Origin: Natrononativus amylolyticus
GTDB taxonomy: Archaea; Halobacteriota; Halobacteria; Halobacteriales; Natrialbaceae
Assembly (NCBI RefSeq): GCF_024362525.1
Contig: NZ_CP101459.1
Span: 558,001-622,000, forward strand
DNA length: 64,000 nucleotides
Direction: 5' to 3'
Part shown: positions 44,222-49,812 of the stretch, one piece after another
Position numbering within the stretch: the first letter of the stretch is position 1
Layout: every line of letters begins with the position of its first letter
Translations under genes and position numbers: made by a program
Notes under the pieces: model-generated
The model's input: the letters and a program-made list of their open reading frames with translations, nothing else
Told to the model about the DNA's origin: nothing
Database searches by the model: none

Positions 44222-44402
44222 CGGATATCGAAACGAACCGTCCCGAAGTATATGAACGCATTCCCGCCGGGTCGCTCACCGAACGGTCGAGGTTTCTCGC
44301 GCGGGGCGGCTACGACTGACTACCACGGGTATGAGCTTCGCCCGGAAACGTTCCCGAAATCGTGAGAAAGCGCATTTACCTCACTGAGCCGTAACGTACG
44401 TG

Positions 44403-46553
44403 ATGAGTCTCTCGAGGGAGACGTCCGACCGAAGGGCGACGGCCCAATCTGTAAACTCCGTCACTTTCGAGCCAGCCGACGGGGAGTACGGCGTCGAAGT
44501 GCTCGATCTGATCGACCGCCATCGGTACCTCCTCTGGACGCCCGCTCCCGTCTCGTTCGAGCGGGCGGACCCCGATACGTTCCCCGCGCCCGTCGACGCG
44601 GCGGTCTCGCTGTCGACGAGTGCGCTCACGTTTCCGACGGTCGTGCCGGTCGTCATCCGAGACGAGACGGGAACGTTCCTTGCGAGCGTCGAGCAGATGG
44701 CAACTGAGACGCTCCCCGAGGGGCGGTACTGTCTCGAGGTCGCCGCGCCGATCCGGCTGTACGTGGACGTCCACGCTAGCGTAACCGTCTCGTCGGATCT
44801 GCTCCAGACGTACATCGACTTCGGCGACGAGACGCCGGTTGCGATCGGTGCGACCTCGTATCACGAGGGGCCCGCCGCGACGGTAACCACGACTGACGAA
44901 CCACGAGACGTGATGGCTGCCGTCTCGACGTTCGCCTCGGGGCTCAAGACCCTGAGCCCCGAACGGTCGTTTCCCTCAAACCGCGGCCACCCTCCAGTCG
45001 TGGCCCGCGGCGACTCGTTGCGGATTCCGGACGGGCTCGAGCCGCCCGAGACGGAAATCCGTCTCGAGGTGCCTCCCGACCTGCCGTCGATCTACGCGGC
45101 CGCGCCGCTGGCGTACTACCTCGGTGCCGGCCTCGTTCCGGCGGACAGGCCGCGACTGGTCACGGAGACCGGTTTCGATTACGTCCTCGACGACCAAGTG
45201 GAGTACGTTACCGGGGTCGAACGGACGCTGAAGCGACTGTTCGTCCTCGACTGTGTGGTCCGAACCGAGGGCGTCCACCCCGTGGCGCTGTACGAACGCC
45301 GCCAGCTCGAGTCACAGCTCGACGTAGACTGCGAAGCGCTCTACGGCTGTCCGTCCGCAGCGCGCCTCGAGCGCTACTTCGAGATCCCGTTTTCGGCGCT
45401 CGAACCGCTGCTCCCCGACTGGAAGGTCGCCGCACACGTCGATCCCGTGCCCGCATCCGTCGAGTTTCTCCCGTTTCTCGCCCACCGACTCGCAGTAGTC
45501 CACCCCACGCGCGCCGTGGAGATCGCACCCCCTGACGACCGACAGACGGTCGCCGACGAGGTCCGTCGACACGATGGTGTCGGTCCCGACGCGCCAGCCC
45601 GCGGGGCCTCGCCGACGTCCGTCCGGCCAGCGCGAACGGGGACGATGGAGGAGCTCTGGATCGGCGAGGGGGTTCCGTTGGGGGTCAACAAGGCGGTACT
45701 CGAGGGTTATCGGAACCGGATCGGCCGCCAGCAGGTCGAGGGCGACATCGAACTCACCGTCGTTTACAACGAGGTTCCGGAGTCGCCGCCGAGTGACGAT
45801 CCCTTGACCAGTATGCACGCCGAACGGGCGCTCATCGACGAGGTGTACGGCTCCCGGAGCGATTTTCCGTTCGAAACGACGATCCATCACAACCTGACAG
45901 TCGCGGAGTTGCGGGCGGTCCTCGAGACGCCGGTGGACTTCCTGCACTACATCGGTCACATCGACAGCGACGGGATCAGATGCGTCGACGGGAGCCTGGA
46001 TGTGGCGACCCTCGAGGCCGTCGGCCCCGACTCGTTCTTCCTGAACGCCTGTCGGTCCTACGAGCAGGGTATCCACCTCATCGAGGGCGGGAGCATCGGC
46101 GGCATCGCGACGTTGGACGACGTCGTCAACGGCGAGGCGATCGAGATGGGCCAGACGATCGCCCAACTGCTCAACCGCGGCTTTCCGCTGTACGCCGTCC
46201 ACGAGATCGCCCGCGACGCGGTCGGCCACGGCGAGCAGTACGTCGTCCTCGGTGACGGCGGGCTCGCGATCGCCCAGGCGGAGAGCAGCGTTCCCAACCT
46301 CTGTGAAATCGAGCGCAACGGGGAGGGCTTCACGGTCGGAATTCGGACGTACCCGACCACCCGCCGCGGGCTCGGCACACTGTTTATCCCCTACGTCGCC
46401 TCCAACGAGGAGTACTTCCTGAGCGGCGGGTCCCTGAAGCCGTTTCGACTCTCGCGAACCGAACTACGGCAATTTCTGGCGCTCGAGAACGTTCCCATCC
46501 GCATACACGGAGAACTGCGCTGGAGCGACGACGTCGACATCTCAGCGCTGTAG
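44403..46553 (+). CDS. Large protein with C-terminal CHAT (caspase-like) domain
   Basis: A 716-residue protein. The first about 370 residues are beta-rich without a known name. From about 410 to 640 is a caspase/CHAT-like fold: ELTVVYNEVP (strand), MHAERALIDEVYGS, VDFLHYIGHIDSDGIRC with the catalytic His in IGH (His519), then DSFFLNACRSYEQG with the catalytic Cys (NAC, Cys550) and GIATLDDVVNGEAIEMGQ. The H...NAC pair at a spacing of about 31 is the CHAT/separase-like hallmark. No membrane segment or signal. The ATG at 44403 follows a GTG; I chose ATG. CHAT proteins act in stress or defence as cysteine proteases, but no partner protease substrate is evident here. Confidence 0.7.
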   Translation: MSLSRETSDRRATAQSVNSVTFEPADGEYGVEVLDLIDRHRYLLWTPAPVSFERADPDTFPAPVDAAVSLSTSALTFPTVVPVVIRDETGTFLASVEQMATETLPEGRYCLEVAAPIRLYVDVHASVTVSSDLLQTYIDFGDETPVAIGATSYHEGPAATVTTTDEPRDVMAAVSTFASGLKTLSPERSFPSNRGHPPVVARGDSLRIPDGLEPPETEIRLEVPPDLPSIYAAAPLAYYLGAGLVPADRPRLVTETGFDYVLDDQVEYVTGVERTLKRLFVLDCVVRTEGVHPVALYERRQLESQLDVDCEALYGCPSAARLERYFEIPFSALEPLLPDWKVAAHVDPVPASVEFLPFLAHRLAVVHPTRAVEIAPPDDRQTVADEVRRHDGVGPDAPARGASPTSVRPARTGTMEELWIGEGVPLGVNKAVLEGYRNRIGRQQVEGDIELTVVYNEVPESPPSDDPLTSMHAERALIDEVYGSRSDFPFETTIHHNLTVAELRAVLETPVDFLHYIGHIDSDGIRCVDGSLDVATLEAVGPDSFFLNACRSYEQGIHLIEGGSIGGIATLDDVVNGEAIEMGQTIAQLLNRGFPLYAVHEIARDAVGHGEQYVVLGDGGLAIAQAESSVPNLCEIERNGEGFTVGIRTYPTTRRGLGTLFIPYVASNEEYFLSGGSLKPFRLSRTELRQFLALENVPIRIHGELRWSDDVDISAL

Positions 46554-46705: not shown

Positions 46706-46852
46706 CTACGAGATCGCGCCGCCGTTGGCTGCCGCCACGCTGCCGGTCTGGGAAGCTAACAGACAGAGCGTGAACAGCGCACCGAGCGCGCGTGGGTGGG
46801 CTTTGAGGTACTCAACGAACTGCTTGCCGGCCGATGGTTGTAAGTCGGACAT
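46706..46852 (-). CDS. Tiny membrane peptide (48 aa), DUF7503-like
   Basis: A 48-residue peptide: polar head (MSDLQPSAGKQFVEYLKAHP), one membrane-like segment (RALGALFTLCLLASQTGSVA), and end AAANGGAIS. This is the layout of small haloarchaeal peptides of DUF7503 type, from memory. An in-frame ATG at 46867 adds MCTGA, and an AT-rich TATA region near 46890 lies at leaderless distance from that start, so either may be used. It lies between IS scars. Too short for a function; a toxin-like or signal peptide role is possible. Confidence 0.6.
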   Translation of the reverse strand: MSDLQPSAGKQFVEYLKAHPRALGALFTLCLLASQTGSVAAANGGAIS

Positions 46853-47167: not shown

Positions 47168-49024
47168 TCACCGGTTGTGGCGCAGGCCGAGTGCGCCGGC
47201 AACGAGGAGCGCAACGAGGCCGACTGCGATACCGAATCCGGGCATCGAGTCGTCGTCGTACTCATCGTCGGCGTCCGTCTCGTCGTCCGTTTTCTTCTCG
47301 TCGGTCGGTTCGTCGTCGGTGATGGTGTCGTCTTTCTCGGTGTCGGTCTTCTTCTCCTCCTCTTCCGGTTCGTCTTTCTTCTCGTCCGTGTCGTTCGCGT
47401 CGTCCTTCGTATCCTTCTCGGCGTCGGTACCGGTGTCACCTTCCGCGTAGGTGGCGGACTCGCTTTCCGCGAACTGGACGTTCTGGTTCTCCTGGATCGT
47501 GATCTGGACGGCCGAGGCCTCACCGTCGTCCTCGGCGACTGCGAACGCCGTGTTCGACTGGTAGTTCACCTGCGTGATGTTCTGGCTCTGTTCGACCTCG
47601 GCGGTCGACCACTGCTCGACGGCGTTGAGTTCGTCGTGCGGGCCGTCGTAATCGAAGCTCAGGCGGTCGACGTCGTCGACGGAGTCGCCGCCGATGGTCG
47701 CGACGCTCGTCTCGGTCAGCACGACGCCTTCGTAGTTCGAACACGCGGCCTCGAGTTTGCTGCGTTCTTTCTCGTCGAGGTCGCTGTCGTCGATGAAGAT
47801 GTTGAGCGCCTCGGCGGAGGCGACCTGTGCGTTGACGTTCTGCTGGTAGGTCAGCTGGACGGCGTCGGCGGTGCTGCCGTTCGTGGCGATCGCCTGGGCG
47901 GCACTGTCCAGGTTGATGTTGACCTGTTCGACGCTCTGGTACTGGGTGACGCTGGCCTCTGCGGTCTGGTTGACGGCGCCGGCGTCAGCATCGCTTTTCT
48001 TCTCGGGATCGTCGTGGACCTCGGTCGCCTGTGCGAGGACGTCAGTGCCGTCCTCGATGCCGGCGGTGGCGATGTTCAGCCCCGTCGCATCGAGCATGAC
48101 GTTGAGCGCCTCGGCGGAGCCGACCTGTTCGTTGAGGTTCGACTGCTCGGTGAGTTGGATCGCCGTCGCGGAGGCGTTCTCGCCGACGGCGATGGCGATC
48201 GCCGTCCCTTGCTGGTTGACGTTCGCCTGGCTGACCTCCTGGGCCTGCTCGACGGTCGCGTCCGCGCTCTGGTCGGCGTCAGCGCCGTCCTGGCCGTCCT
48301 GTTTCTTCTGTTTGTCGTGCTCACCGGGGTCGGCCGCGGACGCGTTGTCGGCGTAGACGTTCGCCGCGCTCGCCGCGCCCTCCTGGAGGTTGTAGTTGGA
48401 CTGCTCGGTGACCTGGATCGCCGTCGCCTCGCTTTCGTTCTCGGCATAGGCGAACGCGGTCGCGTTCTGGACGATGTTGGTCTGGTCGACCAGCTGGGCC
48501 TGGCTGACGGTGGCGTCGGCCGTCTGGCTGACGGTGGCGTCGCCGTTTGCGACCGCCCAGCCGTCGTACTGCTGGGAGTCGCCGTTGCCCATGAGCAGGT
48601 AGACGTCGCCGACGTTGTCGAACTGCGTCTCGTGGCTGATCTGCTCGTTGGCGGCGCTGGCGTCGCCGTCCTGGACGTTGTCGTTGTACTGGTCCACCTG
48701 CTGGATGGCCGTGGCGTCTCCGCCGCCGATGGCGATGGAGACCGCGAGGCCTTCCTCGTGGATGTTCACCTGGCCGACGTTCTGGTACTGGATGACCTCG
48801 GAGGTGGCATCGGAGTCACCGTTCAGGTGGGCGTCGACGTACTCCTCGAGGCTTTGGTCGCCGGTGTCGGCGCCGAAGGCGAGGTAGAGGTCGTCACCGT
48901 TTTCGAGTGTTTCGACGGTCTGTGTCGGACTGTCGTCTGCGATCGCTACCGGCGCGGTCGCGAGAACAGACAGTACAACCATGCATGCAATCAGGATGGA
49001 TTTCAGTTGGGGGAGGTTTGTCAT
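47168..49024 (-). CDS. PGF-CTERM surface protein with curlin-like repeats
   Basis: A 618-residue exported protein. Signal peptide at 8-29 (Sec-type, ends PVAIAD). Five repeats of about 52-55 residues at about 74-128, 169-222, 254-308, 355-409 and 474-525, each with the pattern VxQxQxVxQxNxx then AxAxAx then AxQxxxQxNxNxQ. The regular Gln/Asn spacing resembles curlin/CsgA amyloid repeats. Several N-x-S/T sites (for example NATA, NASA, NESE, NITQ). Then a Lys/Asp/Glu-rich stalk (530-592) and a PGF-CTERM tail (SMPGFGIAVGLVALLVAGAL) for archaeosortase processing and lipid attachment. Likely a cell-surface fibre or adhesin. Confidence 0.8.
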   Translation of the reverse strand: MTNLPQLKSILIACMVVLSVLATAPVAIADDSPTQTVETLENGDDLYLAFGADTGDQSLEEYVDAHLNGDSDATSEVIQYQNVGQVNIHEEGLAVSIAIGGGDATAIQQVDQYNDNVQDGDASAANEQISHETQFDNVGDVYLLMGNGDSQQYDGWAVANGDATVSQTADATVSQAQLVDQTNIVQNATAFAYAENESEATAIQVTEQSNYNLQEGAASAANVYADNASAADPGEHDKQKKQDGQDGADADQSADATVEQAQEVSQANVNQQGTAIAIAVGENASATAIQLTEQSNLNEQVGSAEALNVMLDATGLNIATAGIEDGTDVLAQATEVHDDPEKKSDADAGAVNQTAEASVTQYQSVEQVNINLDSAAQAIATNGSTADAVQLTYQQNVNAQVASAEALNIFIDDSDLDEKERSKLEAACSNYEGVVLTETSVATIGGDSVDDVDRLSFDYDGPHDELNAVEQWSTAEVEQSQNITQVNYQSNTAFAVAEDDGEASAVQITIQENQNVQFAESESATYAEGDTGTDAEKDTKDDANDTDEKKDEPEEEEKKTDTEKDDTITDDEPTDEKKTDDETDADDEYDDDSMPGFGIAVGLVALLVAGALGLRHNR

Positions 49025-49464
49025 GGTCTCGGGTCGATATATTCGATCATTTGAATCTCTTTGCTCACTGAGTCTGAAGCGACCCGAAATTTCCTATGCT
49101 GAAGACTTCCTTTGGTATCTGGGCGTTGACAGCGAGAAGAAACCGCTTACTGCCGGTTTCGTGGATTACTGGAACCGCGGTGGCGTGGGTGGGACGCGGC
49201 CGAATTCGGGAGGTAGGGTGTAGTTACGGCCGATTTATGGTGAAACAATGTATCGTCTGCGGAGAACGGTGATCGGACCCTCGAGCGGGCGCACGCAGCG
49301 TGTGCGAAACGGAGTTGAGGGGTGATCCGTCGACACCTCGGTGTCTCCCTTCACAGGGTTCGCGGACGGACTCGAGACGGTGAGATGAATATCTGCGACT
49401 TCGTCGAATTACGGTATTTGATCGGTACAGACCGGGGAAAATAGCAGGTGAGTGTCGGCGACGT
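49025..49464. other. Intergenic, promoter of the surface protein and no other gene
   Basis: AT-rich CGATATATTCGA near 49034 may belong to the surface-protein promoter on the minus strand, although it lies nearer to the start than is usual. A minimal frame at about 49231 (MVKQCIVCGER) looks like a zinc-knuckle remnant. The rest shows nothing. Confidence 0.4.
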
Positions 49465-49812
49465 ATGGTTGGGTTGCCACCCCGGCTCTCAACGGGAGTC
49501 GCTGGGCTCGACGACGTACTACACGGCGGCTATCTCGCGGGTGACGCTTATCTCCTCCGCGGGGAGCTCGGAACCGGAAAAACGCTATTGGGGCTGCACT
49601 TTCTTCGCGACGGAGCCGATGCCGGTGAGACCGTGCTGTTCATCAATCTCGAGGAGTCCGAAGCGAAGACCGGTGACACTCTCCGGGGTCGGATTCGACC
49701 TGGACGGGATCGACTTTCTCGATCTGAGTCCTCGCTCTGACGTCTTTACTGTCAGCGGTGACTCGAGAGCGCGTGCTCTCTCGACATCGACTGCGTATAC
49801 AGTTTCATGGGT
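49465..49812 (+). pseudogene. KaiC/RadA-like ATPase, frameshifted and truncated
   Basis: The first 70 residues are a good KaiC-like N-terminus: STGVAGLDDVLHGGYLAGDA, Walker A GELGTGKTLLGL (about 32-43) and VLFINLEESE (about 57-66). After EAKTGDTL a +1 shift is needed to continue SGVGFDLDGIDFLDLSPRSD, which matches the usual next strand (LGFDLDGIDFLDLSPS). Beyond about 49800 no match remains, so the central and C-terminal parts (Walker B) are gone. The gene is dead. Haloarchaea have many KaiC-like signal proteins. Confidence 0.75.

Follow-up and report, generated by a model that had tools for sequence, protein, structure and literature searches.

The DNA analysed here (the window) is a 64,000-nucleotide stretch of contig C2 (768 kb) of Natrononativus amylolyticus, whose genome totals 3.99 Mb in three contigs. 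The minus strand carries an ORF of 618 aa with an ATG start at 47168-49024, where the initial annotation had called a five-repeat protein; the coordinates are exact and the strand can now be added. The encoded protein has counterparts at 43-59% identity in dozens of species, mostly in uninterrupted frames. Thus, we consider the minus-strand ORF to be a real gene. Nothing independent supports the long ORF that runs antisense to it at 47177-49054. The nearest relatives of the gene are in the Natrialbaceae. The following features were assigned, all on the minus strand:

47168..49024, minus: five-unit repeat protein, anchored form, 618 aa (ORF; relatives at 43-59% identity)
48938..49024, minus: Sec-type signal peptide, residues 1-29, cleavage at about AIA-DD (by eye)
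48815..48922, minus: conserved N-terminal module, residues 35-70, LENGDDLYLAFGAD..SLEEYVDAH (invariant residues in the alignment)
48641..48796, minus: repeat unit 1, residues 77-128 (unit profile match)
48353..48508, minus: repeat unit 2, residues 173-224 (unit profile match)
48095..48253, minus: repeat unit 3, residues 258-310 (unit profile match)
47795..47950, minus: repeat unit 4, residues 359-410 (unit profile match)
47450..47596, minus: repeat unit 5, residues 477-525 (unit profile match)
47246..47449, minus: acidic/Lys spacer between repeats and anchor, residues 526-593 (alignment)
47174..47254, minus: PGF-CTERM anchor, residues 591-617 (TIGR04126, E 2.6e-9)

The units measure 52, 52, 53, 52 and about 49 aa (49-53 aa, within a few residues of the 52-55 first proposed) and are separated by linkers of 44, 33, 48 and 66 aa. 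In an alignment with 24 relatives, Y47, F50 and G51 of the N-terminal module are invariant, every relative has a hydrophobic N-terminal segment, and the acidic/Lys spacer occurs in anchored forms only.

Both sorting signals named in the initial annotation stand. The N-terminus is Sec-type as judged by eye (K, a long hydrophobic core, then AIA-DD), and the PGF-CTERM segment scores 36.5 bits against TIGR04126, over the cut-off of 24.5; the Pfam model PF18204 falls just below its own cut-off (18.6 versus 18.8). Elsewhere in the genome we identified a gene encoding archaeosortase A (TIGR04125, E 1.4e-95, 320 bits), which we propose would cleave the protein and attach it to lipid. Apart from the anchor, no known domain was found with Pfam and NCBIfam in the window protein or with Pfam in 38 family members.

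Three other ORFs lie close by. A 717-aa protein (44400-46553, plus strand) looks by eye like a CHAT/caspase-type protease and has no Pfam match at E<=0.01, and beside it is a 48-aa DUF7503 protein (46706-46852, minus strand; E 2.9e-16). A 91-aa ORF at 49465-49740 on the plus strand covers only the first quarter of a KaiC ATPase domain (PF06745, 1-61 of 231) and is probably a gene remnant.

Repeat unit and predicted structure

When loosely defined, the repeat pattern is found five times in the window protein and in none of 20,000 shuffles of its residues. The unit was analysed in 190 copies drawn from 38 related proteins, with the consensus VTQYQDVEQVNINEQSTAVAIAEDGSEATAIQVSYQENENVQFGSADATNVY. 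Across these copies column entropy switches back and forth between roughly 0 and 3 bits: Q3, Q5, Q9, N11, N13, Q15, A18, A20, A22, A28, A30, Q32, Q36, N38, N40 and Q42 are invariant or nearly so, and the residues between the fixed Q/N positions vary at about 3 bits. Positions 18, 20, 22, 28, 30, 44 and 48 are always small, and positions 1, 7, 12, 19, 21 and 31 are hydrophobic in 83-100% of units; those that would form the opposite face (12, 19, 21 and 31) are hydrophobic in 83-99%. The unit divides into two halves that resemble each other, each reading Q...Q.N.N.Q and then A.A.A or A.A.N. This pattern suggests beta strands that present ladders of amides and alanines on one side, and the alternation of 0 and 3 bits is what would be expected if such ladders were buried. 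Units at the same position share 0.60-0.67 identity across species, compared with 0.42-0.53 for different units. Since unit k is closest to unit k elsewhere, the five units represent an ancestral layout with no recent expansion.

AlphaFold2, run on residues 31-525 with 38 sequences, predicts long beta strands in all five units, where most ten-residue blocks have a pLDDT of 66-91, and disordered linkers with a pLDDT below 50 (overall mean pLDDT 59.9, pTM 0.59). Foldseek, run against 350,542 PDB chains, returned just four at E<=10, and the best two, FapC (E 0.14, probability 0.04) and Pontibacter CsgA (E 2.5), are not significant and serve as a hint only. VIA-align gave no Z of 2 or more, and Foldseek against viral models found nothing significant. 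Profile searches of the PDB with the protein and with the unit returned no FapC or CsgA chain at E<=10, and showed no sequence similarity to any other amyloid of solved structure. Their best matches, to PhoQ (E 0.028 and 0.086), were considered as a solved relative and rejected as chance Q/N matches.

The acidic composition and PGF-CTERM recall haloarchaeal S-layer glycoproteins, and together with the low AlphaFold2 confidence in the linkers they would suit a constituent of the S-layer, or a disordered, acidic protein of the surface, in which the Q/N pattern has no structural meaning. However, strict alternation and invariance in all units are unlike disorder, and neither the window protein nor the 38 members match a Pfam S-layer or other domain. 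We regard this explanation as improbable.

Comparison with curlins and other surface amyloids

The initial annotation described the repeats as curlin-like. As a statement of kinship this is not supported by the Pfam, profile or motif evidence. None of the 38 family members matches PF07012 at E<=1, and the source genome has nothing at E<=0.01 in a class-wide search in which four other haloarchaeal genomes exceeded the cut-off and the E. coli control was positive. Hhalign found no alignment between the unit profile and true archaeal curlins, although the curlin side comprised only four close sequences, which makes this a weak test taken alone. The curli motif QXGX2N (minimal repeat X6QXGX2NX10) is absent from the window protein. 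Membership of the curlin family was thus rejected by every sequence test run. A true curlin of the CsgA/CsgB family acquired from bacteria would account for the Q/N rhythm, and one haloarchaeal genus does encode genuine PF07012 proteins, but the repeat period is wrong as well. By the profile tests this origin is largely refuted, and we consider it very improbable. The CsgG, CsgE and CsgF export genes would in any case be unexpected in a single-membrane archaeon.

The genuine PF07012 proteins were found in four genomes of that genus (L084, L085, L086 and L087). The one at G027:C1:1329075-1329671 (L084 1300-2037, minus strand) has 19-aa repeats, NDADVDQRNKAGVFQDGKN, and matches at E 2.1e-45; each of these genes is followed by one for a conserved 258-aa protein that has no Pfam match. 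The single archaeal protein with curli-like repeats mentioned by Dueholm et al. (2012; PMC3521004) seems likelier to be one of these than a member of the family described here. Like the window family, the Haloterrigena-type curlin is haloarchaeal and secreted and has Q/N repeats, but it differs in its 19-aa period and strong PF07012 match, and the two do not align by profile.

Among bacterial amyloids, CsgA and CsgB have regular Gln/Asn positions and form a major/minor pair of related secreted subunits. In contrast to the ~52-aa units and linkers seen here, their repeats of ~19-23 aa are packed end to end and carry a QXGX2N or N-x5-Q motif, and export is through CsgG. FapC and FapB of Pseudomonas likewise are two related subunits, with imperfect Asn/Gln-rich repeats joined by long flexible linkers; FapC repeats are 34 or 48 aa (PMC6242892), and its core is described as hydrophilic plus hydrophobic (PMC12822426). 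Fap proteins have three repeats instead of five, use an outer-membrane export system and lack a PGF-CTERM. By analogy, the window layout, with ~52-aa units, long linkers and putative amide and hydrophobic faces, appears closer to FapC than to CsgA. The folds to compare are the strand-arc-strand beta-solenoid of curlins and the stacked, linker-joined Greek-key repeats of Fap; for the window protein, the corresponding observations are the all-beta AlphaFold2 units and the non-significant Foldseek matches given above. The MspA sheath amyloids of Methanospirillum and Methanothrix, which have imperfect repeats with conserved G, A, N and Q (PMC6242892), are also archaeal and at the cell surface. They can be likened to the window protein by description, and differ in their ~80-aa, poorly conserved repeats and in forming the tubular sheath of methanogens. 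Other haloarchaeal PGF-CTERM surface proteins share the archaeosortase A anchor and acidic spacer; the difference is that the extracellular part of the window protein has no known domain.

Family forms and one-unit partners

The protein belongs to a family that is widespread in the Natrialbaceae, mostly unanchored and usually accompanied by one-unit partners; the last two features were absent from the earlier reading. Among 292 genomes from the class, 58 encode relatives at E<=1e-8: 55 are from the same taxonomic family, and the remaining 3 represent two further families of the order. Named matches are in Natrinema, Natronorubrum, Natrialba, Halovivax, Haloterrigena, Halobiforma, Halopiger, Haladaptatus and Halomicrococcus. 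When 393 genomes drawn evenly from the phylum were searched with the unit profile, matches at E<=1e-6 were confined to the same family; the Haladaptatus and Halomicrococcus members came from other searches. Public records call these proteins hypothetical or PGF-CTERM sorting domain-containing. Among open-licence papers we found no paper or experiment on the family, and a tblastn search of 50,697 phage records for a phage origin gave no match.

Three forms can be distinguished: free, stopping right after unit 5; PGF-CTERM anchored; and Tat-signal. Most members are unanchored. Five anchored Natrialbaceae proteins, including that of the window, form one clade in the tree (SH-aLRT 99), and an anchored Halomicrococcus protein is placed elsewhere. 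At five loci (L029, L030, L031, L037 and L082) the five-unit protein carries a Tat-type signal (KRRGYLKG), implying that it is exported folded; some of these proteins have Lys-rich C-terminal tails. Natronorubrum bangense has a large/small locus on both chromosome and plasmid (L058 and L059), with identical predicted proteins.

Beside most free-form genes, about 0.5-1.7 kb upstream and on the opposite strand, are 1-4 genes encoding small secreted proteins of ~100-270 aa. Their signal is conserved (MKR..L..TVALIGSLMFMGFAGTAAA), and each carries the unit once, in some cases interrupted by an insertion. The unit and small-protein profiles align by hhalign (Prob 97.6, E 3.8e-12), and a search with the small-protein profile recovers every one of the five units in the window protein. 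AlphaFold2 gives a small partner a pLDDT of 48 and no predicted fold. Under a strict script filter, 28 of 40 loci have divergent small genes upstream of the large gene, and a related set is found in 29 of 40; the other recurring neighbours look by eye like housekeeping genes. In 66 genomes of the family for which both results are available, 51 have large and small genes, two have the large gene only (G006 and G264), none has the small only, and 13 have neither (Fisher p 5e-12, which overstates the case because the genomes are related). Joint absence recurs in several genera that have both elsewhere (g4, g11 and g29). In the source genome, the chromosomal contig carries a free form with three tandem small genes, and the window copy on C2 has no small gene adjoining it. 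Longer small-type proteins, encoded at L055 4506-5291, L056 5514-6323 and L078 4718-5749, have a separate domain between the half-units or more than one unit.

The main rival explanation is a monomeric surface protein that never polymerises, its units folding as one beta-solenoid or as individual beta domains and serving as a stalk, an adhesin or an S-layer spacer. The five-unit layout is fixed and its units are orthologous by position, unlike CsgA, whose repeat number varies freely (Dueholm 2012, PMC3521004); the long acidic linkers with conserved motifs (GNGDGQQFDGWG and GMNVATAG) suggest a defined tertiary structure; and PGF-CTERM is common on ordinary haloarchaeal surface proteins. However, repeat number is fixed in FapC too, almost always at three (PMC12822426), and a monomer leaves unexplained the one-unit secreted proteins that are kept adjoining the large gene and co-occur with it. 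We give a monomeric beta stalk or adhesin a substantial minority chance.

A candidate surface amyloid in Haloarchaea

We see an even chance that the window protein is an anchored member of a haloarchaeal, two-component secreted family of amyloid-like (beta-arcade) proteins. In favour of this proposal are the alternation of entropy and the hydrophobic positions over 190 units, the all-beta units of the AlphaFold2 model, FapC and CsgA as best, non-significant Foldseek matches, the unit shared with the small secreted proteins, their divergent placement and their co-occurrence with the large gene, the presence of archaeosortase A and the single, supported clade of anchored Natrialbaceae proteins. 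Against it are the low mean pLDDT, the poor model of the small partner, the lack of significant structure matches, the lack of a small partner adjoining the window's anchored copy and the relatedness of the co-occurring genomes. To call it a candidate functional amyloid, as the initial annotation did, is reasonable in view of the regular Q/N repeats, the predicted repetitive beta structure and the archaeosortase A in the genome.

Following Sec export, each ~52-residue unit could form one or two rungs of a beta stack outside the cell. One face of the stack would carry Gln/Asn and Ala ladders, the opposite face would be short and hydrophobic, and the acidic linkers would loop out. Archaeosortase A would cut the PGF-CTERM and tie the protein to a membrane lipid, so that the stack would be held at the cell surface. 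The small one-unit proteins and the unanchored five-unit form could add to its open edge by stacking between molecules, and labour may be divided among the anchored, free and small forms. The product may be a fibre or matrix at the surface that serves in attaching cells and forming biofilm.

More broadly, and with slightly less confidence than an even chance, a two-component surface amyloid system separate from Csg and Fap may be native to the Natrialbaceae and some Haladaptataceae. It would combine one-unit secreted subunits with a five-unit protein in one of three states: free, exported by Tat (in some cases bearing a Lys-rich tail) or tied to the membrane by archaeosortase, the last giving a sortase-rooted amyloid fibre.

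To our knowledge, the proteins behind the amyloid-dye binding of haloarchaeal biofilms are not established. Such binding is seen in biofilms of Haloferax volcanii (PMC4180959). If the family described here makes fibres, it would provide a gene pair for deletion and purification, and an example of amyloid assembly in near-saturated salt that needs no secretion channel in an outer membrane. Besides curli and Fap, there would then be a third way of making fibres out of Asn/Gln ladders, and the form anchored by archaeosortase would reveal how such a fibre is rooted on an archaeal surface.
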